Below are positions 14,136 to 32,964 of a stretch of DNA of 49,334 nucleotides, piece after piece. Positions within the stretch are counted from its first letter, which is position 1, and every line of letters begins with the position of its first letter. Position numbers and translations under genes: made by a program. The notes under the pieces were generated by a model. The model ran no database searches, was not told where the DNA came from, and saw only the letters and a list, made by a program, of their open reading frames with translations. The DNA comes from a virus. The stretch spans positions 1-49,334 of IMG/VR virus record IMGVR_UViG_3300036828_000682; one strand, given 5' to 3'.

Positions 14136-15113
14136 ATGCCACAAGTCGCGATGGTTTCTGATGCTCAACTGTGTCTATTCGATTTGGGGGACAACGTGAC
14201 TGAACTCCGTCATGAGATGTCTGAGTTGCTCCTTTGGAAGCGTGCTCCAACGACTCAGATAAACTACAGATCCGATTTCCGCATATTTGAGAGTTTTTGC
14301 AAACGGAATGGGCGGGCTGCTATGCCCGCCTCTCCGGACACCCTCAATCTCTTTGTGACTGCGCAATTGAGGGATTTTAAGGTAGCTACCGTCGATCGGC
14401 GCCTGTCCGGTATCAAGGCAGCGCACAAAGCTGCGGGGCACGAATTGCCGCCGCTCCCAAAATGCCGCGAACTGATGGTGTCAATGAGGCAGCGCAGGCA
14501 TGAGCGGCCTCAGGGTAAAAAGTCGCTCGACGTGAAGGATCTCGTGCGCATTTGTCGCAAACTGGGGGACACGAATGCTGGAGTGCGTGATAGGGCGGTG
14601 CTTGTGTTCGGCTTCGCCACGGGGTTGCGGCGTAGTGAGATCGCCAGGCTGGATTTAGCGGATGTACAGGTGTCTTCGAAGGGCATCGTCATCGATGTGA
14701 AATGGTCCAAGACGGATCAACAGGCTAAGGGTCGGACATTCGCGATTTTCGCCGGCAAACGAGAATGCACCGATCCCGTCCGTACCATGCGGGCGTGGAT
14801 TGCTGCACGGGGCAAGGAGCAGGGGCCTTTATTCACGCGGGTCCAGACGGGCGACATAGTAACCCTGCAGCGCCTCGCGGGTGAATCCGTCAACGAGGTG
14901 GTCCATCGCGCTGTGAAGCGCATTGGGCTTGATCCGACCCAGTACGGAGCCCACTCGCTAAGGGCGGGACTCGTGACAACCGCGGCGGACGCAGGCGCTT
15001 CGGATCGAGAAATCATGCGGGCATCTGGGCACAGGTCTGTGCAGGTGATGTCCAGGTACGTGCGCCACTCCAGGGCATACGCTACCCGCAACGTTCTGGC
15101 CGGTGCGCTGTAA
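14136..15113 (+). CDS. int: tyrosine recombinase / integrase 1
   Basis: 325 residues. The N-terminal SAM-like core-binding domain (about 30-115: TTQINYRSDFRIFESFCKRN) is followed by the catalytic domain. All six expected positions are present: Arg165 (ATGLRRSE), Lys192 (WSKTDQ), His273 and Arg276 (HSLRAG), His299 (SGHRS) and the nucleophile Tyr308 (SRYVRH). Full length for a phage or mobile-element integrase. It would catalyse attP x attB recombination for lysogeny. It is the first gene rightward after the 394-base region, with a second integrase about 2.5 kb further on. Confidence 0.92.
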   Translation: MPQVAMVSDAQLCLFDLGDNVTELRHEMSELLLWKRAPTTQINYRSDFRIFESFCKRNGRAAMPASPDTLNLFVTAQLRDFKVATVDRRLSGIKAAHKAAGHELPPLPKCRELMVSMRQRRHERPQGKKSLDVKDLVRICRKLGDTNAGVRDRAVLVFGFATGLRRSEIARLDLADVQVSSKGIVIDVKWSKTDQQAKGRTFAIFAGKRECTDPVRTMRAWIAARGKEQGPLFTRVQTGDIVTLQRLAGESVNEVVHRAVKRIGLDPTQYGAHSLRAGLVTTAADAGASDREIMRASGHRSVQVMSRYVRHSRAYATRNVLAGAL

Positions 15114-17577: not shown

Positions 17578-18216
17578 ATGCTCTCACCTGTTTATAACGA
17601 CTTACCCGGCATAGAGACCCCCGAACTGGACGAAGTAACTATTCTGTCCAGTAAGCGCCGACGCCGGCGCCCCGTCCTCGACGTGCTGAAAGAGGATGAA
17701 CTCGCCAGGTTCTTCAAGGCGATCGACTCGGTGCGGGACCGTGCGATCTTCCGCCTGATGTATCACGCCGGCCTTCGAGCGTCCGAAGTGGGTTTGCTCG
17801 AGATGCGCGATTACTCGCCCAGGACGGATCGGTTGTCGGTCCACCGCCTCAAAGGCTCGCACTCGGGTGAGCACGGGTTGTGTCGCGAGGAGTCCCGCGC
17901 ACTCAAAGCATGGTTAAAGGAGCGTGGAGGCGCCCCTGGTGCGATCTTCGCCAGCCGGAAGGGCTCACCCATCAGCCGGAAGATGCTGCACGTTCTGGTG
18001 GGCAAATACGCGGAGCGCGCCAAGCTGCCGGCGAGCTTGCGGCACTGCCACATGCTCAAGCACGCCTGCTGTACTCATCTGCTATCGAAGGGGGAGAATG
18101 TGGAACTCGTGAGGGATTGGGTGGGGCACGCCAACATTCAGAACACCATGATCTATGCGCGGGTGACTAACTCTCGGCGCGATGAGATGGCCACCCGGCT
18201 GCGGGACTGGCGCTAG
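17578..18216 (+). CDS. tyrosine recombinase 2, short, with Lys in the second Arg position
   Basis: 212 residues, almost only a catalytic domain; the N-terminal 37 residues cannot form a full core-binding domain. Catalytic residues: Arg67 (HAGLRASE), Lys92 (RLKGSHSG), His158, Lys161 in place of the usual Arg (HMLKHACC), His184 (VGHAN), Tyr193 (MIYARV). Lys at the HxxR position is seen in some integrase branches but is atypical. It ends convergently on 18213-18452 with overlapping stops. It may be a second integrase, a resolvase for dimers or prophage, or a regulator. Confidence 0.85.
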   Translation: MLSPVYNDLPGIETPELDEVTILSSKRRRRRPVLDVLKEDELARFFKAIDSVRDRAIFRLMYHAGLRASEVGLLEMRDYSPRTDRLSVHRLKGSHSGEHGLCREESRALKAWLKERGGAPGAIFASRKGSPISRKMLHVLVGKYAERAKLPASLRHCHMLKHACCTHLLSKGENVELVRDWVGHANIQNTMIYARVTNSRRDEMATRLRDWR

Positions 18217-19015: not shown

Positions 19016-19141
19016 CTACCGCAAGCCCGCGATGATGAAGGCCACGAGAAAAATCGAGGCTATCGCTAAACAGAACATGATGATGCTGCCGCCGCACGCT
19101 GCGCGGTGCTCGGCGATGATACGCGCCACGTCGGCCTTCAT
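19016..19141 (-). CDS. 41-residue single-pass membrane protein
   Basis: Start ATG 19141 overlaps the stop of the Gp157-like gene (ATGA). MKADVARIIAEHRAACGGS is followed by one strong membrane helix IIMFCLAIASIFLVAFIIAGL and a terminal Arg. Coupled to the early operon. Candidates: superinfection-exclusion or membrane-regulator peptide; none can be assigned. Confidence 0.65.
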   Translation of the reverse strand: MKADVARIIAEHRAACGGSIIMFCLAIASIFLVAFIIAGLR

Positions 19142-19728
19142 TTGCGCCTCACGCTCGTCTTGTCCGTGACGAGCTTGGCGCCGAGAACGTCGACGCCGGC
19201 CTGGATGGTGGCCTTGATCGCGACCTTATCCGGCTGGACGGTGACGGTGCGCTGTACCCAGGGCGCCGCGTTGAGCACATCGGCCCACATCGACGCCGGC
19301 ATCGTAACGGTCACGGTCTGGTAGTCGAGCGGGACTGCCAGCGGATCCGTGATCTCGACCGACACAGGGCATGCCGCCAGTGACAGGGTGCTCGTGTGTC
19401 CTTCGAGCTTGCGGTACTTGCCCTTGGCATCCTTGCCCATACGGGTAATTACGTAGGTAATGTACCCTTCGAGCCGTTCGGCCGCGGCTGCGCTGGCTTT
19501 CTTGAGGTTCTGCAGGCGGGCAATCTCGATTTCGCAGTGAGACTGCCGCGTTTCGAGGTAGGCCAGCATTCCGGCGACGCGATCGCGCTTGTCGGCCGCG
19601 GTGGTGAGCGCTTGTTCCAGTTCGAGCAGGAAGCATTCCTCTGCCGCAACGGGAACCAGCTCCGCGGTATCGAGGAGAGCCGATAAGCTCTCCTCCACGT
19701 CCCAGAGGGTCATGGGTGCTACTGCCAT
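19138..19728 (-). CDS. Siphovirus Gp157-family protein
   Basis: 196 residues from ATG 19728 with GGAGG six bases upstream. It has the family layout: an N-terminal acidic region, a long coiled coil (about 45-90: DKRDRVAGMLAYLETRQSHC then EIEIARLQNLKKASAAAAER), then LEGYITYVITRMGKDAKGKY and RKLEGHTSTLSLAACPVSVE, matching the conserved C-terminal beta part. The family was named from Streptococcus phage Sfi and is typical of early operons next to recombination or ssDNA-binding genes. Biochemical role not established. Confidence 0.75.
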   Translation of the reverse strand: MAVAPMTLWDVEESLSALLDTAELVPVAAEECFLLELEQALTTAADKRDRVAGMLAYLETRQSHCEIEIARLQNLKKASAAAAERLEGYITYVITRMGKDAKGKYRKLEGHTSTLSLAACPVSVEITDPLAVPLDYQTVTVTMPASMWADVLNAAPWVQRTVTVQPDKVAIKATIQAGVDVLGAKLVTDKTSVRRK

Positions 19729-21221: not shown

Positions 21222-24200
21222 TTATCGTTGCGAAAGCGCAGCGCCGAATGCCGGCCCCAGTATCCGTTGCTCTTGTCGGGTCTTGGTATTCAGTGTTTTG
21301 CCCTTCTGCAAGAGCAACGGTCTCAGCTTCTGCCGCTCCTCCGGAGTCGCCTTGCCCCACACTTTGAGCGCCTGGTCGAGCTGCAAGCTCTTGAACGTGC
21401 GCGCCAGCGGGTCCATGTGCGCGCCGGCCAGCGCCCGCCGCACCTCGGCCATGGTGACGGTGCCAGCGCGCAGCGCTTTGCCGATTTCGGCACTCACTGG
21501 GCGCCCCGTGCGCGCCAGCTCCGCGATGGTCCGCTCCTCTTTGGTGCGCTCCACTTGCTCGCGGGTGCGGTTCCCGGGTGGGATGTTGCCGGCCGCCAGC
21601 TCGGACGCGAGCAACGACGCGGAACTCTTCTCGATCGATGATGGCGCCGGCGTGATGCCCACGAACTGTTGGATGCGCTGCGCAATCGGCGCCTTCAGAT
21701 TGGTTTCTTTTTCGAGTGTGCGGATCCCGAACGGCTCGGCCGCAAGCGCAACGTGCTTGCCGGCTTCGAGCATCTGTTGAATCAGCGGGTCATCGACATT
21801 GCGTATCGCGTTGCCGTAGAAGTCCTTGTTCTTGACCATCTCGGCAAATAGCGAAGCGAGAGGGGAAACCTTGTCGGCCAGCGTCCTACCGGGTTCGGTC
21901 GCGTAGTGATAGACATCCTTTACATAGGTCGGCATCGCGACCCGCTGCGGGCGTCCGGACTCGTTGAGTTGCCCCGTGCGAGGAAAGAAGTAGTCTTTCA
22001 GCTCCTGCGGACCCTTCCCGGTGGCGAGGTATTGATAAATCGCGCCGGTGACCGCGCTGGTGATGGCGAGCGAAGCCACGTAAGCCAGCCGGTGAATGTT
22101 CACTTCGCTCGCGGTTTTATTTCCCGTGGCAAGCTGGACGGGAATCTTTACCGCGTCGATCGCAGCCCCGCCAATCTCGCGGATGGTCCCGAGGTTCCAC
22201 CCGACCGAACGCACCGAGAGCATCGCGAGGTCTTTGGCCGTCCTGTTCCAAAACAGGTTGTCATAGGTCAACTGACCCATACGGTTTTCTACCGAGTCCC
22301 AGGCCTTACCCATGGCATCGCGTACCTGCTCATCCGTGGCTGCCGGTCCCAGGCGCTCGAACTCAGCGCGCGCCAGGTCCGCGAACACTCCCAGCTTCTG
22401 CCGCGGGACGATTTCCTTCATGATGATGTTGCTGGTGGCTTCGAGCGTAGCGAACGGAGCGCGCAACAAGCCGCCCAGCACGTTGCCACTGCGAAACGCT
22501 TTCATCATGTTCTCGCGCATGTTGGTCGCGTAAATCTCATCCATATGGGCGCGTCCACCGCCCATCACCAGCCCCGCGACAAGCTTCTCGATCTCCGGAC
22601 TCTGGCTACCGGATCTGTTCCACTCCTGCAGCATCCTGCGACCCTGGAGCCAGTTGGTGACAGGTGCGAGAGGAACGCCCGCCGCGCTTTTCAGTGCCGC
22701 GCCCAGCTTCCCGTGGAGAGCTTGCTCGATCGCGAGCGCGCCCTTCGATACGCTGGCGTCGAGACTCGTGAACCCAAGATGGTAGGCGCTCATGCCTAAC
22801 TGCGCCTGGTTGAGCACGTTATTCGCACCGAGGAGAGCGCGGAACACGCCATACTGCCGCAGTCCGGGTGAGAGGTAGTTTTCGAGGATGGTCGCCGCGC
22901 CTTCGGGAGCGTAGTAATTGCCGCGGAGAATCATTTCGCCGGCCGCGTTACGGCCCCACACGATGCCGATCGGGTCGGCTACCTTAGTCCAGCCTGCAGG
23001 AGCTTTGTGGCCAGGACGGACGAACTTCGCGAGTCTGGTCGCCTTCCACTCAGCGAGGAGCTGATGCGCCATCACGTAGCGGTCAATCTCGCGGGTTTTG
23101 AGGAGTACCAGCTCCACCGGATTGTCCGTCACGGGCTTAAGGCCAGCATTCAAGCCGTCCTCGAAGGTGACCATCGTGCGTTTCTTCAGGAACGCTTTCT
23201 TGCCCTCGATCGGGCGCCGGCCGCCGAACAGCGCAGAGAATACCCCCTTGGCCTGGTTCGGGTTTTCCCAGATATGCGGGAAATAATCCTCATAGAAGGC
23301 CTGCAGCTTGCCGGTCCCCAGGTTCTGCACCTGGTCACGGCGATCATCGAGCAGGTTGCGCAACGCCAGAGCGAGGGTATCGAGCGCCGGCTGAGTTTGC
23401 GCCTGCCCTGCTTCCATCCTCTTAATGAACTCGTACTTCTCCGCTTGCGGTAGCTTGTCCATGGCACGCTTCGCAGTCGCGAACGCTGCCATCATCTGAT
23501 CGGTTTTGCGCGCCAGGTCGGCCGCGCCTTGTCGCAGTCCCAGGCCAGCGCGGTGTGCGTCTGCGGAGCGGAGCTGCGGAGCGAGCACCTTCAGCGCAGT
23601 GTCCACCGCTTCTTTGATACCCTGCGCTGCCTTGATGAGAGTCGGCTCTACGTCATTGACGTAGAACTTATCGAGGCCCAGCGACATGAACGAGAGCAAG
23701 GCGCCGCCGCGTTCACCGCTGCGATCGTCGGCTTCGTCCGAGAAACTGGCGCGCTCGGCCGCGGATTCGCCCAGCTCGGCGTCGATCTCGGCTTTACGGG
23801 CCCGCAGCGCTTCGTATTCCTTCTGCTTCGGCCACGGTCGGGATGCTCTGGCCTGGAGGTCGGCCAGTTTCTTTTCTTGCTCCGGAAGTGACTCAACATC
23901 CCAAGTATTCGGTCCAATACCGCGTGCAGTTGCCTCGATTGATTGTTGGGTGGAGGAGATTTCTCCCTCCCGGTTGACCGAGACATCGTGAGTCGCCCCC
24001 GAGGGTCCTTGCAGATACATGAGTGGGAATGGCTTCTCGTCGGTTTTGACGGCCTTTCCGCCTTCTTCTTTCCATCCGAAGTTGGAATACCCGGGTCTGA
24101 TCCAGATTTTCAGCCCGCGATACGCCCCGATTTTCTGGTGTGCATCGTCCGTGCCCATACCGCGCCAGCTCTCAATCACTGTTGCCAGCGCCGCGCCGGC

Positions 24201-27200
24201 CCGCTTGCGGGCGTCCTTCCCCTCGAACCCCTGCTTTCCTATGGTGTATTGCGCGGGATCGTCCTTATGGCTTTCGATAAGGTCCACGTCGCGTTGTGCT
24301 GCTGCGATGCGGCTCTTGGTCTCCGCGATTCTCCAGGGAAGCCCGCGCATCTCCTGCTGTACCGCGGTTTCCTGTCGCAAGTGTCCGCTGCGCTCCGCTT
24401 CGAGCCGCCCCAGCCGGCCCTCGACGCCAATCTTCTCTTTGATGAGAGGGTTGCCCGTCGCCATGGCCTTGAACTCTTCGGCGGTGGGAATGATCGAGCC
24501 AATATCCTCCATCTCGCGCACATCCGTGCGTCCGGACAAGATGACGGACAGGAACGCGGCTTTGTTTTCGAGCAGCTGCCACGAGTAGGCATCGAAGGAT
24601 GCGCCACTGACGTACTGATACTTCTGGATTACCTTGTTCTCGTTGCCTTGCCGCTCGATGCGCCCGTCGCGCTGCATGATATCGGCGGGTCGCCACGGTG
24701 CATCCATGTGATGCAGCGCAATCATTTTCTTCTGGACGTTGGTCCCGACGCCCATCTTCTCCGTCGAGCCCATCAGGATCCGGACGGATCCGGAGCGCAC
24801 TGCCGAAAAGAGGTTTTCTTTCTGCTGGTCCGAGTTGTAATCGTGAATGAACGCGATTTCCTTGGCGGGAACGCCCATCGCAATCCACTTCTTCCGCATG
24901 TCGTTGTAGACACTGAAGCCGGCCCGTTCGCCGGCGCCCTCGGCTACTGCGTTCGGATCTTCTTCCTCCGGTTGGTCCGCGGTGGGCTTTACCTTGCCCT
25001 CGGGCTTCGGCGTTGACAAATCGCAGAACACGATCTGCGTGGTGCGGTCCTTCTTGCCCTTCTGCCAGATGCGGAAGACGTTCTCTACCGCCTGGTTGAC
25101 CTTGGAGTAGGGATGGTCGGGCGCTCCAGGCATCACGAGCCGGATATCGAGCGCGGCTTTCTTGCCTTCGCCCACGATCTTGAGCATGTTGTCGATCGAC
25201 TTGTCCACGCCGCCGTTTCTTACTACGTCGGTGCGCTCAATCAGAGAATCGACAAAGGCGTGCAGCTCCGGAGATTCCGGAGATTCAATAGCCGTGGTGC
25301 GTCCACCTTCGACATCCGGCCGCGGTAACTTCAGCATCTCAGCCGTTTTCACATCGGCGATCTGCATGTACATGTGCATCAGCTCGGGAATGTTGATGAG
25401 ACGGGCAAAGCGCGTGTTCTCGCGATAGCCGCGCCCCGACACGTCGAGTTCCACGCCGCTCCGCACGGCCCCGAACGTGTTTGCCCAGGCGTCGAAATGC
25501 GCTACGCCGTTTTCGCGCATGGTTTCCGGCTGCAGGTACCGCTGCATGTTGTACAGCTCGGCCATGGTGTTGGTAACCGGCGTCCCGGTCGCGAACACTA
25601 CGCCGCGCTGCCCACCGTTGAGCTGCGAGACGTACTGGGTTTTCATCAGCATGTCCGTAGCGCGGTTGCTCTCGCGGTTCGGGATGCCGGCGATGCGCTG
25701 GCGCCTCGTGATGATAGGGAGAGCTTTGAAGGCGTGCGCTTCGTCCACCAGCATCATATCGATGCCCAGGTGCTCGAAATTGACCGCATTATCCTTGCCC
25801 TCGCGGTCCAAATGCTTCGCGAGCTTCACTTCGAGGCGAACGATAGCAGCCTCGATCTCCTTGACGGTCTTGTCTTTCTTTTTGTCCTTCTCGCTCATCC
25901 CTTCGGATGCGGATTCGAGCGCTGCGCGCAGTTCGGCTACCTGCGAATCGAAGAACCGTTGATAAGTCTCGTCACTTACCGGAATCTTCTCGAATGACGA
26001 GTGGCGGATGATGATGGCGTCCCAGTTGGAGCCCGCGATCCGCGCCACGGCCCGCTTGCGGTTCACCGCGGCAAAGTCTTCCTTGCCGATGGTCAGGATG
26101 CGCGCGGACGGGTAGAGTTGCATGAACTCCCGCGTGAACTGCGCCGCCATGTGGTTCGGTACGACGATGGCCGGCTTCTTTGCGAGGCCCAGGCGCCGGC
26201 TTTCCATGGCCGCGCCCACCATTACCCAAGTCTTACCCGCTCCGACTTCATGCGCGAGCAAGGTGTTGCCGGTTTTGAGGATGCGCCAGATGGCATTCTT
26301 CTGGTGAGGCCGCAGTGTAACTTGCGGATTGGAGCCGGGTAGGGTCAAGTGCGACCCATCGTGGTCAGCATTGACGGTGTTATTCACCGTCCGGTTGTAA
26401 TGCTTCGCGAGCGCATCGGACTGCTTCGGGTCTTCCCAAAGCCATTGCTCGAAACGCACTCTCAGCGCGTCCTGTGCGGCTTGCGCTATCGCCGTCGCCC
26501 GCGGGTTGACCACGCGGGATCCCTCGGTCGGCCCCGCCATGTAGACCTTTGGCGCCTTACCGTTGAGCGCCAGGTCGAGTAACTTGTGGCCGAAGTGGGT
26601 TTGCGTGCCATACGTCGTATCGTTGGCTGCGCGCCCGCGCTCGTGTTTATCGGTCGTAACGACCCAGAGCGCGGTATTCGGTTCGTAGGTTACGGTTCCG
26701 CTGTGCTGGTCGAGCACATGGCGCAAGAACTTCTGCACCACGTGAGCCGGGATCCAGTTGGCGCCCATACTCACCTTGATATCGGCAATCGGGATATCTA
26801 CCGGCTGAATCTTCTGGAGCGCTTCGACGTTTTCGTTAAATGCGGGGTCGGCGTTGGCCGCTTCGAGCGCGACGTCCAACTTGTCTTTGACGTTGCCCGA
26901 GAGGTATTCGTCCTGCGTCTGCCACTTGCCGCCCTCGGGGTTGCGGAATACTTGCCCCTTGAGTTCCTTGCGCAGCTCATCCGGCGTCTTGCCGGTGAGT
27001 TCCTGCATGTGCGCCCAGTCGATCCGGCCGAAACGGTTGAGCGTAAGCGCGAGAGCTTCCGCCGCGGTCCCGGCTTTGTCGGGATACGTCGGTTGCTCCA
27101 ACGTCCGTTTCGTGAAGATGTCCGTTTTGGTGGCCGTCTTCGCATCGCGGTCCCAGTTTTCGAGCGCGCCGGCCATCGGAAGATAGTCCGGATCTTCGCC

Positions 27201-30200
27201 CAGCGCGGAGCGATTCGCGAGAGCGTTGAGAAAGCCGTGTGCCTTGACGAACGAGTCATAGGCTTTATTGAGCGCCCGCCGCGCCGCAACCATCTTCGGT
27301 TCGCTGTCGCCGTCTAACTGGGTGCTGAATACTTCGTACAGAGCTTTGCGGACTGGAAGCATTGCCTTGATCCGCAACGCTTGCAATCCGTTTTTCATGA
27401 TTGCCGGCCGGTAGATGTTGCCCTCGCGCTGCACGATCACGCCGTCTACGATCGAATACCCGCCGTCCTTCACTTCGTCGCCAAGCTGGAGATAGCCCGC
27501 GGTTTCCGCTGCGGGAGTGTCGGCCGTCCATGGCTTGAAGACGTTCTCAGGGAGTCGCGCCACACGCTCTGCCAGTGCTTCGGGCGTCACCGTGCCTTTA
27601 ACCGTGAGGTTTTTGTCGGGTCCGTAGTGCGAGCCAGTCATCGAGTGCTCACCGAGAACCATCTCGGGGTGCTCGATGTAGTACTCGTTCATGTGGGCGT
27701 TGCCGTCGTTACCGAAGGACACCTCCCGCGTGTTCTCGAAGGACGGCCCCGATGGCTCCTCGCCCTCGGCCCGCTTCTGCAGGTAGACGATATCGGTCAC
27801 AACTGCGGTGCCGGCGTTGCCCTTGAACGCGGTATCCGGTAGCCGGATCATGCCCAGCAGGTTCGCTTTGCTGCCGATGAGCTTGCGGATTGCCGCGTCC
27901 TGCGAGTCCATGGTGAAGCGGCTCGTGATGAACGCGACAATTCCGCCAGGTCGAACGAGATCGAGCGACTTGATGAAGTAGTAGTTGTGGATCGCGCGCA
28001 GCGCTACCGGCGTTTTCCGGTAGCGTAGGTCGCGCACGGGGAGCTTGCCGAAAGGGACGTTGCTCACGGCCGCGTCGAAGAAGTTGTTCGGGAGCGCGAT
28101 TTTCTGGAATGGGGAAATCTGGATATTCGAGCCGGGATACAGCATCTTGGCAATCTGCCCGGTGATGTAATCCATCTCGATGCCGGTGCGTCTCGATGGC
28201 ATCATGTCATCGGGTTGCAGCCCCAGGACGTTACCCACGCCGGCCGCGGGCTCCATCCATGAGTTGCCGGCCGCAAAACCGAACCTGCGCAGCGCATTCC
28301 ACAGACCGCCCACCACGACCATCGGAGAGGTGTAGTGAGCATTGACCGTCGATGCGGATGCCGTGCGGTACTCGTCGTCGGTCAGTAGGGCGCGCAGCTC
28401 CTCCCGTGCGCCGTCCCAGTCGCGCTTGCGCGTATCGAAGATGTTGGAGAGCGAACCCCAGCCCACGAACTTGGCGAGTTTCGACTGTTCCGCGGGTGTC
28501 GGTGGGCGTGCTTCGGCCAGTACCTTCTTTAAGGTGCGGATCGCTTCGAGGTTGTTGCGGAGTCGGACCTTCTCGCCGCCCTCGCCAACGTGGTCCGCGT
28601 CGGTGATGCGGTAGTCGCCATCTTCCTGCCGGGTTAGGTCGCCCGGCCCGGTCTGGTGTCCGGAATCATCCAGTCCTCCCTCGCCAGTTCGTCCCCCTGG
28701 AACGCTGACAGACCCGCCTCGAACGCTTCCTGTGCTATCCGGTTGTGCTGGTCCGCTGCTTCCGCTACTCGCTGGCGGAATTGGTCGGCCGCTTTCAGGT
28801 CCTTCGTGAAGTTCGGGCGCTCCGTCTCCCAGAACTTCCGGATCATGTTCTCCAGGCCGTCGTACCCTTCCTCGTCCCCCAGGTTCGTCGGTGGCTGGTT
28901 CGGTGGCATCGGTTTTACCCGCTTCTATCTTACCTTTGGGTTCGGGAGCCTCGATCTCAGCGGGTTCCGGCGCCACCTGGTCGAAGATATCGCCGGCCGG
29001 TGGCGCGATGACCGCGGGTTCCTTCGCCGGCGCCTCAAGCTGCTTCGGTTCTGCTTTTACCGGGGTGACATCGATAGTGCCGGTGCCCTCTGGCATACGC
29101 TCGGGCGCGGCCGTCTCGGGGTATTCCTTCGCGTGAAACTCCTGGATGGCCTTGTAGGCTGCTTCACGGGTGGGGAATTTTCCGATGCTTCCGTACCCCT
29201 GCGGTTTGGATACTATGTCATCGGCGACGTTGGCCCAGCTCGCCCCAAACCCATGGCGCTGTCTGTAAATCGAGTATTGCCGTTGCCCGCCCTCGATCGG
29301 GATGCGGGTGTATGTCGTGTTGCTGCCGTGGCCGTCGCCGCGGCTGCCCCAATCTTCGAGGGGTAAGAGGCTTGTACTCGTGGGGGGCGCCGCCGCGGCC
29401 GGCGCCGCGATCGCGGTCTCGGCCGTCTGAGGTTCCGGAGGTGCCGGTTCAGGTTTCTCGGGAGGTGTCAGGCCTTCTTTGGCATCGGTATCTGCGGGCG
29501 CTGCTGCGGTTGTGCCGCCTGCAGGCTCGCCAGCAGGCCGTTCGACTGCGGGTTGCTCGGTTTCTTGACTTGCTTCTTTTTGCCCATCGGTGGCGGGGTT
29601 TTGCTCCACGGTAACTGCATTTGGTGTCTCCTCGGTTTGAACTGGTAGTGCTGCTTGAACTGGTGGTGGTGCTGCCGGTGTCTCATCCGGTGAGCTACTC
29701 GGTAGCACCGTATTGACGAACTCCTGCGCGTTGGCCGTGGTCTGCTCATCGGCTTCCTGCGGAGTCGGTAATAGGTCGCTCGGTTTGAGCGGTGGAGCTA
29801 CGGGTACTCGTGGCTTGCGTTGCCGTTTGGGTGGCGAACCCGCGCCCGCAAGTAGTTGCTCCCTGCCGGCGTAGTCATCGCGAGCGGGGTTGTCTGCCGG
29901 CCAACCGTCTGCCGTGGCCTGGTCCGGTGCCACCTGGTCGAAGATATCGCCGCCGCCAGTCGGTTGCCCCGTCGACGTGTACTGCTGCTCGGGTGCTTCC
30001 TTGGCTCGAGCATTCAGTAGGCGGATGCCCTTGGCGTCCACGCCGCCAGGATGCTGCGCGGCCATGAGGCCCATCGTGACTGCGCTCGTGATCGAGCTTT
30101 GCTGGTCCGCGCCGGCTAATCGTTGCTGCGCGTAGGTCATGGCAGCAGCGCCCGTGAGGCGAATGACGCGCGAAGCCGGTCCCATGACATGCAGCGCCCC

Positions 30201-30767
30201 GCCCAGTGCTGCACCTTCGGCCGCTGCCTGGAGTGCCGGGATGACGCCCTTATCTTCTGCGTTCAGCGCGGAGACAGCGCCCAGGCCGATAATCGGCCCC
30301 GCCACTTCGCCGGCAATCGCGTATTGGGGGAGTTCCAGCATGCCCTGCCCAACGCCGCGGAAGATTGCACTCGGTAGGCCCGTGCGGTCCCCTGCGAGGT
30401 CTTTGGATTTCTGTTGCTGGTCCTTCTCGCCTTGCCGTGCCCAGTCGCGCATCGCAGCGAACGCGCCGCCCTTCGAGAGTCCGGTGAGGTTGGAAATCTG
30501 GTCCGCACCCGTGTCGAAAAGGTCGAAGACGTTGCCGGCCAGGTGATTGGCCGCCGCGGACGCGCCCTCCACCATGCTGCCGATGTCTTTCGCGTTGCTG
30601 ACTACGCTCTGGTCCCACACGCGGGAAAGTAGACCCGGTTGCTGCGGAGCTGCCGGTGCCTTCGGAACTGCCGGCGCCGGTGCCTTGTCCGGTGCCACCT
30701 GGTCGAAGATATCGCCTGCAGGCGCCGGTGCCTTGTCCGGTGCCACCTGGTCGAAGATATCGGGCAT
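21222..30767 (-). CDS. giant polyvalent ejection protein: methyltransferase plus SF2 helicase
   Basis: 3181 residues, TGATG-coupled to the upstream gene. Layout: two IFDQV repeats (residues 3-25), a helical, membrane-prone part (about 45-260), Pro/Ala-rich linkers with further IFDQV copies near 274 and 592, an N6-adenine methyltransferase-like domain (about 720-1010; EPAAGVG near 840, NVPFG near 902), and a DEAH/SNF2-type helicase (Walker A VGAGKTW near 1509, DEAH near 1675, TGTPVTNT near 1728, RDGRIERQG near 2034). Then coiled coil and a long C-terminal helical region typical of large polyvalent phage proteins. DarB-like proteins of this kind are packaged and injected to protect entering DNA from restriction. 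Ejection and anti-restriction roles are inferred. Confidence 0.8.
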   Translation of the reverse strand: MPDIFDQVAPDKAPAPAGDIFDQVAPDKAPAPAVPKAPAAPQQPGLLSRVWDQSVVSNAKDIGSMVEGASAAANHLAGNVFDLFDTGADQISNLTGLSKGGAFAAMRDWARQGEKDQQQKSKDLAGDRTGLPSAIFRGVGQGMLELPQYAIAGEVAGPIIGLGAVSALNAEDKGVIPALQAAAEGAALGGALHVMGPASRVIRLTGAAAMTYAQQRLAGADQQSSITSAVTMGLMAAQHPGGVDAKGIRLLNARAKEAPEQQYTSTGQPTGGGDIFDQVAPDQATADGWPADNPARDDYAGREQLLAGAGSPPKRQRKPRVPVAPPLKPSDLLPTPQEADEQTTANAQEFVNTVLPSSSPDETPAAPPPVQAALPVQTEETPNAVTVEQNPATDGQKEASQETEQPAVERPAGEPAGGTTAAAPADTDAKEGLTPPEKPEPAPPEPQTAETAIAAPAAAAPPTSTSLLPLEDWGSRGDGHGSNTTYTRIPIEGGQRQYSIYRQRHGFGASWANVADDIVSKPQGYGSIGKFPTREAAYKAIQEFHAKEYPETAAPERMPEGTGTIDVTPVKAEPKQLEAPAKEPAVIAPPAGDIFDQVAPEPAEIEAPEPKGKIEAGKTDATEPATDEPGGRGRVRRPGEHDPEVLGDGAPELHEGPESGRPIPPASSGSSGPAQPDSTGSVRGGSVSVPGGRTGEGGLDDSGHQTGPGDLTRQEDGDYRITDADHVGEGGEKVRLRNNLEAIRTLKKVLAEARPPTPAEQSKLAKFVGWGSLSNIFDTRKRDWDGAREELRALLTDDEYRTASASTVNAHYTSPMVVVGGLWNALRRFGFAAGNSWMEPAAGVGNVLGLQPDDMMPSRRTGIEMDYITGQIAKMLYPGSNIQISPFQKIALPNNFFDAAVSNVPFGKLPVRDLRYRKTPVALRAIHNYYFIKSLDLVRPGGIVAFITSRFTMDSQDAAIRKLIGSKANLLGMIRLPDTAFKGNAGTAVVTDIVYLQKRAEGEEPSGPSFENTREVSFGNDGNAHMNEYYIEHPEMVLGEHSMTGSHYGPDKNLTVKGTVTPEALAERVARLPENVFKPWTADTPAAETAGYLQLGDEVKDGGYSIVDGVIVQREGNIYRPAIMKNGLQALRIKAMLPVRKALYEVFSTQLDGDSEPKMVAARRALNKAYDSFVKAHGFLNALANRSALGEDPDYLPMAGALENWDRDAKTATKTDIFTKRTLEQPTYPDKAGTAAEALALTLNRFGRIDWAHMQELTGKTPDELRKELKGQVFRNPEGGKWQTQDEYLSGNVKDKLDVALEAANADPAFNENVEALQKIQPVDIPIADIKVSMGANWIPAHVVQKFLRHVLDQHSGTVTYEPNTALWVVTTDKHERGRAANDTTYGTQTHFGHKLLDLALNGKAPKVYMAGPTEGSRVVNPRATAIAQAAQDALRVRFEQWLWEDPKQSDALAKHYNRTVNNTVNADHDGSHLTLPGSNPQVTLRPHQKNAIWRILKTGNTLLAHEVGAGKTWVMVGAAMESRRLGLAKKPAIVVPNHMAAQFTREFMQLYPSARILTIGKEDFAAVNRKRAVARIAGSNWDAIIIRHSSFEKIPVSDETYQRFFDSQVAELRAALESASEGMSEKDKKKDKTVKEIEAAIVRLEVKLAKHLDREGKDNAVNFEHLGIDMMLVDEAHAFKALPIITRRQRIAGIPNRESNRATDMLMKTQYVSQLNGGQRGVVFATGTPVTNTMAELYNMQRYLQPETMRENGVAHFDAWANTFGAVRSGVELDVSGRGYRENTRFARLINIPELMHMYMQIADVKTAEMLKLPRPDVEGGRTTAIESPESPELHAFVDSLIERTDVVRNGGVDKSIDNMLKIVGEGKKAALDIRLVMPGAPDHPYSKVNQAVENVFRIWQKGKKDRTTQIVFCDLSTPKPEGKVKPTADQPEEEDPNAVAEGAGERAGFSVYNDMRKKWIAMGVPAKEIAFIHDYNSDQQKENLFSAVRSGSVRILMGSTEKMGVGTNVQKKMIALHHMDAPWRPADIMQRDGRIERQGNENKVIQKYQYVSGASFDAYSWQLLENKAAFLSVILSGRTDVREMEDIGSIIPTAEEFKAMATGNPLIKEKIGVEGRLGRLEAERSGHLRQETAVQQEMRGLPWRIAETKSRIAAAQRDVDLIESHKDDPAQYTIGKQGFEGKDARKRAGAALATVIESWRGMGTDDAHQKIGAYRGLKIWIRPGYSNFGWKEEGGKAVKTDEKPFPLMYLQGPSGATHDVSVNREGEISSTQQSIEATARGIGPNTWDVESLPEQEKKLADLQARASRPWPKQKEYEALRARKAEIDAELGESAAERASFSDEADDRSGERGGALLSFMSLGLDKFYVNDVEPTLIKAAQGIKEAVDTALKVLAPQLRSADAHRAGLGLRQGAADLARKTDQMMAAFATAKRAMDKLPQAEKYEFIKRMEAGQAQTQPALDTLALALRNLLDDRRDQVQNLGTGKLQAFYEDYFPHIWENPNQAKGVFSALFGGRRPIEGKKAFLKKRTMVTFEDGLNAGLKPVTDNPVELVLLKTREIDRYVMAHQLLAEWKATRLAKFVRPGHKAPAGWTKVADPIGIVWGRNAAGEMILRGNYYAPEGAATILENYLSPGLRQYGVFRALLGANNVLNQAQLGMSAYHLGFTSLDASVSKGALAIEQALHGKLGAALKSAAGVPLAPVTNWLQGRRMLQEWNRSGSQSPEIEKLVAGLVMGGGRAHMDEIYATNMRENMMKAFRSGNVLGGLLRAPFATLEATSNIIMKEIVPRQKLGVFADLARAEFERLGPAATDEQVRDAMGKAWDSVENRMGQLTYDNLFWNRTAKDLAMLSVRSVGWNLGTIREIGGAAIDAVKIPVQLATGNKTASEVNIHRLAYVASLAITSAVTGAIYQYLATGKGPQELKDYFFPRTGQLNESGRPQRVAMPTYVKDVYHYATEPGRTLADKVSPLASLFAEMVKNKDFYGNAIRNVDDPLIQQMLEAGKHVALAAEPFGIRTLEKETNLKAPIAQRIQQFVGITPAPSSIEKSSASLLASELAAGNIPPGNRTREQVERTKEERTIAELARTGRPVSAEIGKALRAGTVTMAEVRRALAGAHMDPLARTFKSLQLDQALKVWGKATPEERQKLRPLLLQKGKTLNTKTRQEQRILGPAFGAALSQR
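30673..30762 (-). repeat. tandem 42-bp repeat, 48-bp period, encoding the IFDQV motif
   Basis: Copies at 30673-30714 and 30721-30762 are identical, encoding two consecutive GDIFDQVAPDKAPAPA-type units. Shorter copies of the same DNA word occur near 29923-29950 and 28969-28994 inside the same gene. Confidence 0.85.
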
Positions 30768-32428
30768 CAGAACTCCCAGCCGTCGGCTTTAGCGAGTCGG
30801 CGGGCTTTCATCTTGTCGCCGCCCGCCTTTTTGACATACTCCATGGCTTTCGCCTGGTCGGTGAGTCTGCCCTTGCTCTGGGTTGCCCCCGGTTTCACGA
30901 GCCGGCTCCACGGAGCAAGAGGCTTTGCCTCGGGAGCTGCTGGAGGAGCGGCCGGCGCCGGCGCCGCAGCTTGCGGAGGGGTCGCTTGCGGAACTACCTT
31001 GGGCGCGGCCGGTGGCGCCTGCGGTGCGGCCGGCGCCGGCGTTTTCGGCGTTTCGGGCGCCTTCGGTGTTTCGGGCGCGTTCTTTTGGGTGCCCGATGCC
31101 GTGTCGGGATACTCTACGTGCTCCACGGGATAGCCGAACTGCGTCAGGCTCGATTCGTACTTGTCCTGCGCGGTCTGCTTGTCCTTCCGAAGCTGCTCGG
31201 CCGCTGCATGGATCGCGTCAGGGTCGGTATAGTCCTTCCCTCCGACGCCCCCACCTTTTATAGTGGCCGCCGCGACTGCCTTCTTAAAGGCTGCTTCCGC
31301 CCTCGATTCGCCCACCGTCTTCTGGTTTCTGATGGTATTGAGCTGCACGGGTGTCGCGGGCTTTGGCCCCGCTGCCCCCTTCGCCGCGTTCGGGTCTTTG
31401 CGCGTTGGGCCTGCGCCGGGGAATGTTCCCGCGGGCTTGGCAGTCTCCGTCTCGGGGTCGAAGGAGAACGCTGAGACGTTGCCTTGATTGTCCGAGGTGT
31501 AATGCGCCGTGGGTTTCGCTTTCGGTTTCGCCACGGACATACCGGGCGCCATGGTGATTGGGGAAGCAGTCCCCTTGTTTTCGTCCACCATCGCGGGCGT
31601 GTTGAAAGATTTCGGGTCGTAGTGCGGTTGCAGTCCTCGCGCTGCCGCATCGGCGTCGAGGAACGTTTTGAGCGCCTTGTGGGGAATGCGGGTGCCCGGT
31701 TGCAGGTTCAGGTGTTGGAGCGCGTTTGCGAGATCGCCCACGGACACGGAGTTCGTGTCATCGAGCGGTGCAGATGCTTTGGTCTTACTCGCGGTGCGTT
31801 CCTCATCGTCCGGAACATGATAGTCCACACCCCACGGGGTATGCATCCGGTGAGCTTCGTTATCGATGCCACCCGGGCGAACCGGCGCCGGTGCAGCCGG
31901 AATGCCGGCCGCGGCTGCGGACTGGGCAAGACTGCTCATGAGGTCCTGGTCCTGTCCCTGCTGTTGCTGCGCTGCTACCGTGTCATCCGATTGCGTGGCG
32001 CCAGGGCGAACTTGCAGCCCTTTGGCTTGCCGTGACTGGTCTGCGGTTCCAGTCTGCCCGTTGTTCGCGATCTTCATCTTGGCCGGCGAGAACCCTTGGC
32101 CCTGGTTAGCCGGTCCCGGTGGTTGCGGAGTGGACGGGATCGAGTTACCGATTCCGCCTGTTCCCGGTACCAAGCCGGTGGTCGAAGAATTGGGGTCCAC
32201 GGGAGTTCCGCCCATGGCGCGCAGTTGGCGTTCGTTCTCGAACTGCTGCTGCTTCATCTTGTCCTGGTACATCTGGTCCGTGAGCGCCTGCTTCTGCTGA
32301 AGCTGCTGCTGATCGAAAGCTGCTTGCTTCAGGGACCGCGCCAGGTCGGTCATGTTCCACAAGGAACCTGCCGCGTGGCCAATCGCGTGAGTTACCGGGT
32401 TGTTTACGAGAGCGTCGAGGAAGGGCAT
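30767..32428 (-). CDS. probable ejection / internal virion protein
   Basis: 553 residues from ATG 32428. N-terminal helix NPVTHAIGHAAGSLWNMTDL, then a Gln-rich coiled coil AFDQQQLQQKQALTDQMYQD, a long low-complexity Pro/Gly/Ala/Lys body, and a C-terminal basic helix KKAGGDKMKARRLAKADGWE. Compositionally like gp20-type P22 ejection proteins, and placed between the small Ser/Gly-rich protein and the giant protein, the position of the middle ejection gene. Assignment is by order and composition. Confidence 0.5.
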   Translation of the reverse strand: MPFLDALVNNPVTHAIGHAAGSLWNMTDLARSLKQAAFDQQQLQQKQALTDQMYQDKMKQQQFENERQLRAMGGTPVDPNSSTTGLVPGTGGIGNSIPSTPQPPGPANQGQGFSPAKMKIANNGQTGTADQSRQAKGLQVRPGATQSDDTVAAQQQQGQDQDLMSSLAQSAAAAGIPAAPAPVRPGGIDNEAHRMHTPWGVDYHVPDDEERTASKTKASAPLDDTNSVSVGDLANALQHLNLQPGTRIPHKALKTFLDADAAARGLQPHYDPKSFNTPAMVDENKGTASPITMAPGMSVAKPKAKPTAHYTSDNQGNVSAFSFDPETETAKPAGTFPGAGPTRKDPNAAKGAAGPKPATPVQLNTIRNQKTVGESRAEAAFKKAVAAATIKGGGVGGKDYTDPDAIHAAAEQLRKDKQTAQDKYESSLTQFGYPVEHVEYPDTASGTQKNAPETPKAPETPKTPAPAAPQAPPAAPKVVPQATPPQAAAPAPAAPPAAPEAKPLAPWSRLVKPGATQSKGRLTDQAKAMEYVKKAGGDKMKARRLAKADGWEF

Positions 32429-32439
32429 TAGTTTGTCTT

Positions 32440-32964
32440 TCAGATTTTGGCGCTGGCGCCAACGCCCCAGCCGCTTTCACTGCCTGTACTGCTACCGCTC
32501 TTGGTGTCGGAGGACGTCCCCGTTGACGTGGTACCGGAGTTATTGAACGCCGCGCTGAGTGAATCCTGGAGCCCCTGTTGCTGGAGTTGCAACCCGGTGG
32601 CCCCGTAACTCGCGCTATTGTTTGCGAGCGCGCCCTGTCTTCCCAGCTCGGTTTGAAGGACTGACTTTCCCGCCTGACCGCTTGACCCGAACCCTCTTGC
32701 TGCGAGGAACTTCTGGGTCCGGTCCCCCACCGAGGAGTACTCCGAGTTGATCTGGTCCGCGCTCGCCGTCTGCGCTGCCGTCACTGTCGGGGATGCAGAG
32801 CCCGAGATCAAACCCTGCAGCGCTTGAATCAGACTGCCCTGTAGGCTGGTCTGATCCGCTGTGTACGTCTTGTTCGTTGAGGACGCCACTGCCGCGTTGT
32901 CTTGGCTCGTGCTCGTGCTCTTGCTGCTTTGACTGTTGTACCCGCCCGATAATCCCAGTCCCAT
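32440..32964 (-). CDS. small ejection-type / internal virion protein
   Basis: 174 residues from ATG 32964. Ser/Thr/Gly/Gln-rich ends (SSKSTSTSQDNAAVASSTNK and TSTGTSSDTKSGSSTGSESG) around a helical core TSLQGSLIQALQGLISGSAS with EYSSVGDRTQKFLAARGFGS and LQLQQQGLQDSLSAAF. Similar in style to the smallest P22-type ejection proteins. The first 350 bases of this gene are also read, in another frame, as the tail of the GNAT gene. Confidence 0.55.
   Translation of the reverse strand: MGLGLSGGYNSQSSKSTSTSQDNAAVASSTNKTYTADQTSLQGSLIQALQGLISGSASPTVTAAQTASADQINSEYSSVGDRTQKFLAARGFGSSGQAGKSVLQTELGRQGALANNSASYGATGLQLQQQGLQDSLSAAFNNSGTTSTGTSSDTKSGSSTGSESGWGVGASAKI

Follow-up and report, generated by a model that had tools for sequence, protein, structure and literature searches.

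The window, by which we mean the whole 49,334-nucleotide stretch of viral DNA analysed here (IMG/VR record IMGVR_UViG_3300036828_000682), encodes on its minus strand a 3181-residue protein in which a short DIFDQV peptide, referred to below as the tag, is found four times. The gene preceding it ends in a conserved stretch, referred to as the module. The features are as follows.

21222..30767, minus strand: tagged polyvalent protein, 3181 aa, ATG start (open reading frame and domain searches)
30742..30761, minus strand: tag copy 1, at residue 3, coding for DIFDQVA at the extreme N-terminus
30694..30713, minus strand: tag copy 2, at residue 19, in a 48-bp tandem with copy 1
29929..29948, minus strand: tag copy 3, at residue 274, dispersed, in a disorder-type linker
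28972..28991, minus strand: tag copy 4, at residue 593, dispersed, in a Pro/Ala/Glu-rich linker ahead of the methyltransferase domain
30767..32428, minus strand: upstream protein, 553 aa, putative gp15-like ejection protein (role from gene order)
30770..30871, minus strand: proposed receptor, the conserved C-terminal module GRLTDQAKAMEYVKKAGGDKMKARRLAKADGWEF-stop
32440..32964, minus strand: 174-aa protein in a putative gp14-like position (from order only)

A preliminary description of this DNA had reported four copies of GDIFDQVAP, the last at about residue 592. Four copies of DIFDQVAP were indeed present, starting at residues 3, 19, 274 and 593, but the first is preceded by P and not by G. 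The same description had the encoding DNA unchanged in all four copies, two of them as a 48-bp tandem, and this was borne out, the 20-mer GCCACCTGGTCGAAGATATC occurring four times in the window with 0 mismatches (0.01 expected). Copies 1-3 are the same over 24 nt (GATATCTTCGACCAGGTGGCACCG), and copy 4 has one third-codon base changed near the end. A peptide representing the tag is MPDIFDQVAPDKAPAPAGDIFDQVAP. When all window proteins were checked, no other protein was found to contain a DIFDQV motif.

The enzyme domains and the upstream gene

The window protein matched the PHROG family 'DarB-like antirestriction' (phrog_10089, 1617 bits, residues 562-2339) and aligned with proteins of named phages over ~1600 residues at ~40% identity. 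Domain searches returned N6_Mtase, ResIII above the cut-off and weaker SNF2/Helicase_C matches, and found no peptidase domain. Both motifs of a gamma-class N6-adenine methyltransferase were present, the TP motif (HYTSP at 811) and the N-P-P-[YF] motif IV (at 903, with NVPFG replacing NPPFG), and fused C-terminal to them was an SF2 helicase with a Walker A motif (HEVGAGKT at 1506), DEAHAFK (1675) and motif VI (QRDGRIERQG at 2032). Since motif IV (window 28047-28061) has the N-V-P-F form and not N-P-P-F, a form common to 22 of the 79 relatives tallied, the predicted methyltransferase activity is uncertain.

Phage polyvalent proteins are giant, multidomain proteins encoded near virion genes which combine methyltransferase-helicase and LPD domains and are predicted to be packaged and injected (Iyer et al. 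2017, PMC5512222). The window protein resembles them in its size of 3181 aa, its domains and its place adjoining structural genes, and its C-terminal polyvalent region was also found in other tagged proteins. Neither an N-terminal tag nor a cognate module came up when the text of PMC5512222 was searched for the motif and for packaging terms.

In the sequence TGATG the stop codon of the upstream gene and the tagged gene's start codon overlap. The module with which the upstream protein ends is ~35 residues long, with the consensus K-x-L-[DT]-x3-A-x2-[FYL]-L-x2-A-G-G-D-K-x-K-A-R-x-L-A-x3-G-[WYF]-x-F-stop. In the window and in the contig of locus L070 the portal and tail tube genes are followed by genes for a small, a medium and a giant protein, an order which, with part of the gene identities putative, matches T7 gp14-gp15-gp16 and places the module gene and the tagged gene as consecutive genes in the gp15 and gp16 positions, downstream of the tail tube genes. 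The upstream proteins and the module gave no informative PHROG or PDB sequence match and 30767-32428 had no detectable similarity to T7 gp15, so the proposed gp15-like and gp16-like roles rest on gene order. Elsewhere in this podovirus-like genome two integrase-like genes lie ~2.5 kb apart (window 14136-15113 and 17578-18216), and a Mu Gam-like end-protection gene is found at 19138-19728.

Co-occurrence of tag and module in IMG/VR

A scan of IMG/VR for DIFDQVAP returned five contigs, in four of which the motif formed the extreme N-terminus of a phage protein and was present twice within the first 50 residues, as exact copies or one-residue variants. Wider patterns showed that many large, mutually unrelated phage proteins of IMG/VR begin with D[IV]FDx[VILA] in tandem. 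The retained pairs nearly always had 2-4 such copies within the first 60 residues, and nearly always the module ended a gene upstream, usually immediately, of the tandem-tagged gene.

A non-circular test was made by scanning IMG/VR for GDKxKARxLA alone, the tag not being used. The module was located 17-18 residues from the end of the open reading frame in 30 loci, and the downstream gene had the tag at its start in all 30, counting two genes that are incomplete at the sequence edge with the tag visible and a few loci that are near-duplicates. Four further loci with an in-frame module came from a second, independent pattern (KAR..A...GW.F-stop), and a tag was nearby in each (4/4). At L311 a 93-aa gene lies between the module gene and the tagged gene, and at L316 the tagged gene, which has one tag copy, lies ~0.8 kb from the module gene; as these genes are not adjacent, neither adjacency nor readthrough is necessary for the association. 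Among the first 45 residues of 385 control ORFs from the same and comparison loci a single motif occurred once and two motifs never. In the reverse direction, the upstream gene could be read for 17 tandem-tagged genes and encoded the module in 16 of these cases, in divergent form at L015; at L012 there were tandem tags but no recognisable module.

The scans gave 42 unique pairs, with at least two tags in 40 and one tag plus a degenerate copy in the other two. The tag residues D, F and D were nearly invariant over these largely unrelated pairs. Past residue 60 the tagged proteins fell into 23 BLAST-unrelated groups among 38; for the upstream proteins, compared with the last 40 residues removed, the number was 35 among 42. 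Judged by sequence, these pairs of proteins are otherwise unrelated, and only the tag and the module are conserved.

Further tag copies past residue 60 were found in eight of the 42 tagged proteins (10 copies, against ~0.9 expected from a clean control rate that is based on only three control occurrences). These dispersed copies lie mostly in linkers rich in disorder-promoting residues and recur in relatives. At most other loci the codons of the tandem copies differ, identical residues sharing the same codon in 60% of cases, while the peptide is retained, which indicates that the copies are old and kept by selection. The earlier proposal that copy number evolves by slippage can explain the 48-bp tandem of the window but not the dispersed copies.

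Searches elsewhere for the pair were negative. When cultured phages were searched by tblastn at E=10, neither the 45-aa tag region nor the 34-aa module had a match, and no cultured phage carrying both tag and module was found. In the PDB sequence search the tag region had no match and a tag-plus-module profile gave only non-significant matches to solved structures. The tag scan of genome_contigs returned four unrelated bacterial proteins, the module scan of 385 genomes five chance matches (none at a C-terminus, none with a tag), and the single-protein query P0001 against viral_contigs no match; with the broad module pattern LxxAGGDxxxAxxLA, matches out of frame overwhelmed the rest. We also looked for a single ORF in which module and tag are naturally fused and found none. 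The open literature searched contained neither the tag nor the module string, and a text search for the motif led to one irrelevant paper.

Cargo of the tagged proteins and other N-terminal repeats

DarB-like methyltransferase-helicases are found among the tagged cargo in the window, L026 and L070, together with a methyltransferase plus helicase of another kind (L005), LPD38 proteins (L072, L098) and a protein with a match to an internal virion protein family (L043). In L033, L076 and L085 the tag is present and similarity to the window protein is, in the parts compared, confined to the C-terminal polyvalent region. Loss of the motif from homologues in the same genomic context had been named beforehand as what would refute a docking role; L026, L033, L070, L076 and L085, which have the same neighbour, all carry it. 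The tagged gene at L010:988-5628 encodes a 1547-aa phage protein with a GGDEF diguanylate cyclase domain (residues 407-572, E=2e-10). This protein is probably injected, and may be an injected second-messenger enzyme.

We rejected the motif as a property of the methyltransferase-helicase family. The 80 best-matching DarB-like relatives in IMG/VR provided 62 distinct readable N-termini, none of which had a tandem DIFD or a module next door, and the six DarB-like proteins of named phages likewise had neither tag (0/6) nor module (0/6). Because DarB-like proteins without the upstream module have no motif, the motif is tied to the gene pair and not to the enzyme. Six records chosen as named-phage relatives of other tagged proteins or of the portal (MW202801, MW202722, zth2-2, Ruegeria 45A6, Pascal and HTVC027P) had no DIFD tag and no module, and some of them had other tandem N-terminal repeats.

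Tandem N-terminal repeats of other kinds were found in several DarB-like proteins. L148, the closest methyltransferase-helicase relative (59% identical in the best segment), has a different one, and significant repeats were present at the N-terminus of 13 of 62 untagged DarB-like proteins compared with 1 of 62 in interior stretches. The motifs in L148 (2276 onwards), L174, L151, L175, L164, L134 and L159 are YDVxGARKxGLSxDDI, DPFDVARxMGL, IDWxxGTL, SD[DE]EVFG, LxLDYxP, PWEE and DPWxQ, and these are possibly other tag classes. Beside the DPWxQ-tagged gene of L159 the upstream gene (L159:5021-6196) encodes a divergent C-terminal module of the GGDVNTAK type (RFLTLAGGDVNTAKALAVKSGFDPNQIAPE), which may make the two a re-specified pair. 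The giant proteins of the podovirus records MW202722 and zth2-2 (L331 and L332) have the tandem N-terminal repeats S[IV]YD[NG]LL and D[LA]L[NI][DQ]QWK, and their upstream genes have in common another C-terminal stretch (..AE[ML]W..). The module-bearing protein of L316 (11185-12537) itself has VTDPELLKQLE twice in tandem at its start, which would suit a chain of ejection proteins joined by successive tags.

A possible docking contact between consecutive, putative ejection proteins

An AlphaFold2 model was made of the natural in-frame stretch of L011, with the stop codon read as Gly. The module was predicted as two helices with flanking short strands (pLDDT ~90), and the tag covalently adjoining it reached pLDDT 76-79 with a short helix, compared with ~64 for the N-terminus folded alone; this modest gain is no more than suggestive. 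The mean charge of the module is +3.0 (basic) and that of the tag region -5.0 (acidic). Trp at module position +13 was accompanied by Gln in the tag in 10 of 12 cases against 9 of 30 (p=0.002, uncorrected for kinship). UBA-like mini-domains are a fold class that binds short motifs. Foldseek and Pfam searches with the module gave UBA-like matches only below threshold and no significant fold match, and the weak resemblance is to helical mini-domains longer than the module, which has a terminal aromatic-x-Phe carboxyl end.

In T7 the N-terminal 'molecular tape' of gp16 binds and stabilises the C-terminal domain of gp15, and this gp15-gp16 ejectosome interface has the same gene order as the window (PMC8954989); T7 uses a transglycosylase and a tape of ~70 residues, whereas here there are short repeated tags and a 35-aa terminal module. 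In P1, the 30 N-terminal residues of DarB send a reporter into the capsid, so that ~30 residues of a DarB methyltransferase-helicase suffice for packaging (PMC9024508). Unlike the window protein, the P1 DarB N-terminus in the P1 record has no DIFD motif and no tandem repeat, and is without visible similarity to the DIFDQV tags; the P1 capsid is that of a myovirus. The capsid targeting sequence of T4 internal proteins occurs in a single copy, differs in sequence and docks to the scaffold core. It is short and N-terminal, and is enough to load cargo into the head, as cited in PMC9024508.

Taking the T7 contact and the P1 signal together, the best reading would be a modular gp15-gp16 contact that loads exchangeable effectors. 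We consider it probable, though well short of certain, that the DIFDxV tags dock a gp16-like ejection or polyvalent protein onto the C-terminal module of the upstream gp15-like ejection protein. The DIFDQV copies would be short docking tags on a large, DarB-like and probably virion-packaged and injected protein, and the ~35-residue two-helix module at the C-terminus of the preceding protein would be their receptor, the acidic-hydrophobic tag D-[IV]-F-D-x-[VIL] meeting the basic GDKxKARxLA...G[WYF]xF. At least two tandem tags, with extra copies in some long linkers, may provide avidity for an oligomeric partner. If tag and module are all that binding requires, both proteins are swappable outside these two elements, and one socket could load methyltransferase-helicases, a diguanylate-cyclase-like domain and LPD38 proteins. 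The original suggestion of a short linear docking motif with a partner that is probably a virion protein is supported for the DarB-like protein, but the partner is most likely the upstream C-terminal module and not, as had been proposed, a capsid, portal or scaffold protein.

The same linkage would arise if tag and module were not in mutual contact and both docked to one third virion component (portal, gp14-like core protein, scaffold or coat), their co-occurrence reflecting membership of one assembly. The separated genes of L311 and L316 and the need of P1 DarB for other Dar proteins in packaging fit such an arrangement; we nevertheless regard it as unlikely, given that both proteins are highly swappable outside tag and module, that the charges of the two are complementary, and that the two genes are almost always in direct succession, as is most simply explained by a pair. 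A host factor bound after injection (e.g. a chaperone, clamp or membrane protein) would suit short multi-copy motifs in disordered regions, which are typical of host-directed binding, but would leave unexplained both the linkage to a phage C-terminal module and the absence of the motif from DarB-like proteins without the module, and seems very improbable.

Two further explanations were rejected. Processing sites for a prohead or self-encoded protease, marking cleavage points that free modules after delivery, would accord with dispersed copies in linkers, with the frequency of peptidase domains in polyvalent proteins and with the cleavage of P1 DdrB (PMC5512222). However, 2-4 tandem copies in the first 60 residues make poor cleavage sites, the window protein has no detected peptidase domain, and a cleavage site should not track the C-terminal module of a neighbour, which leaves little chance for this explanation. 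Least credible of all are functionless scars of slippage and gene fusion. The 48-bp tandem and the identical DNA of the window copies would be expected of them, but they are contradicted by the near-invariance of D, F and D without homology around the motif, by tandem copies elsewhere that change codons and keep the peptide, and by the linkage to the module.

The docking reading may extend further. In podoviruses, consecutive ejection proteins may be joined through a general plug-and-socket code, in which each large injected protein has a short tandem tag at its N-terminus and the protein encoded before it a cognate module at its C-terminus, with DIFDxV/GGDKxKAR..GWxF as one orthogonal pair among several and phages exchanging effectors by keeping the tag; this is a tentative proposal, to which we give somewhat less than an even chance. 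To our knowledge, little has been established about the way in which giant effector proteins come to be chosen for packaging and injection, and we know of no direct partner for the mapped P1 DarB signal. Tag and module would give a rule by which likely injected proteins could be recognised from sequence in metagenomic phages, as well as a binding pair that can be tested, and the tag is possibly a minimal address for loading reporter proteins into short-tailed phages.
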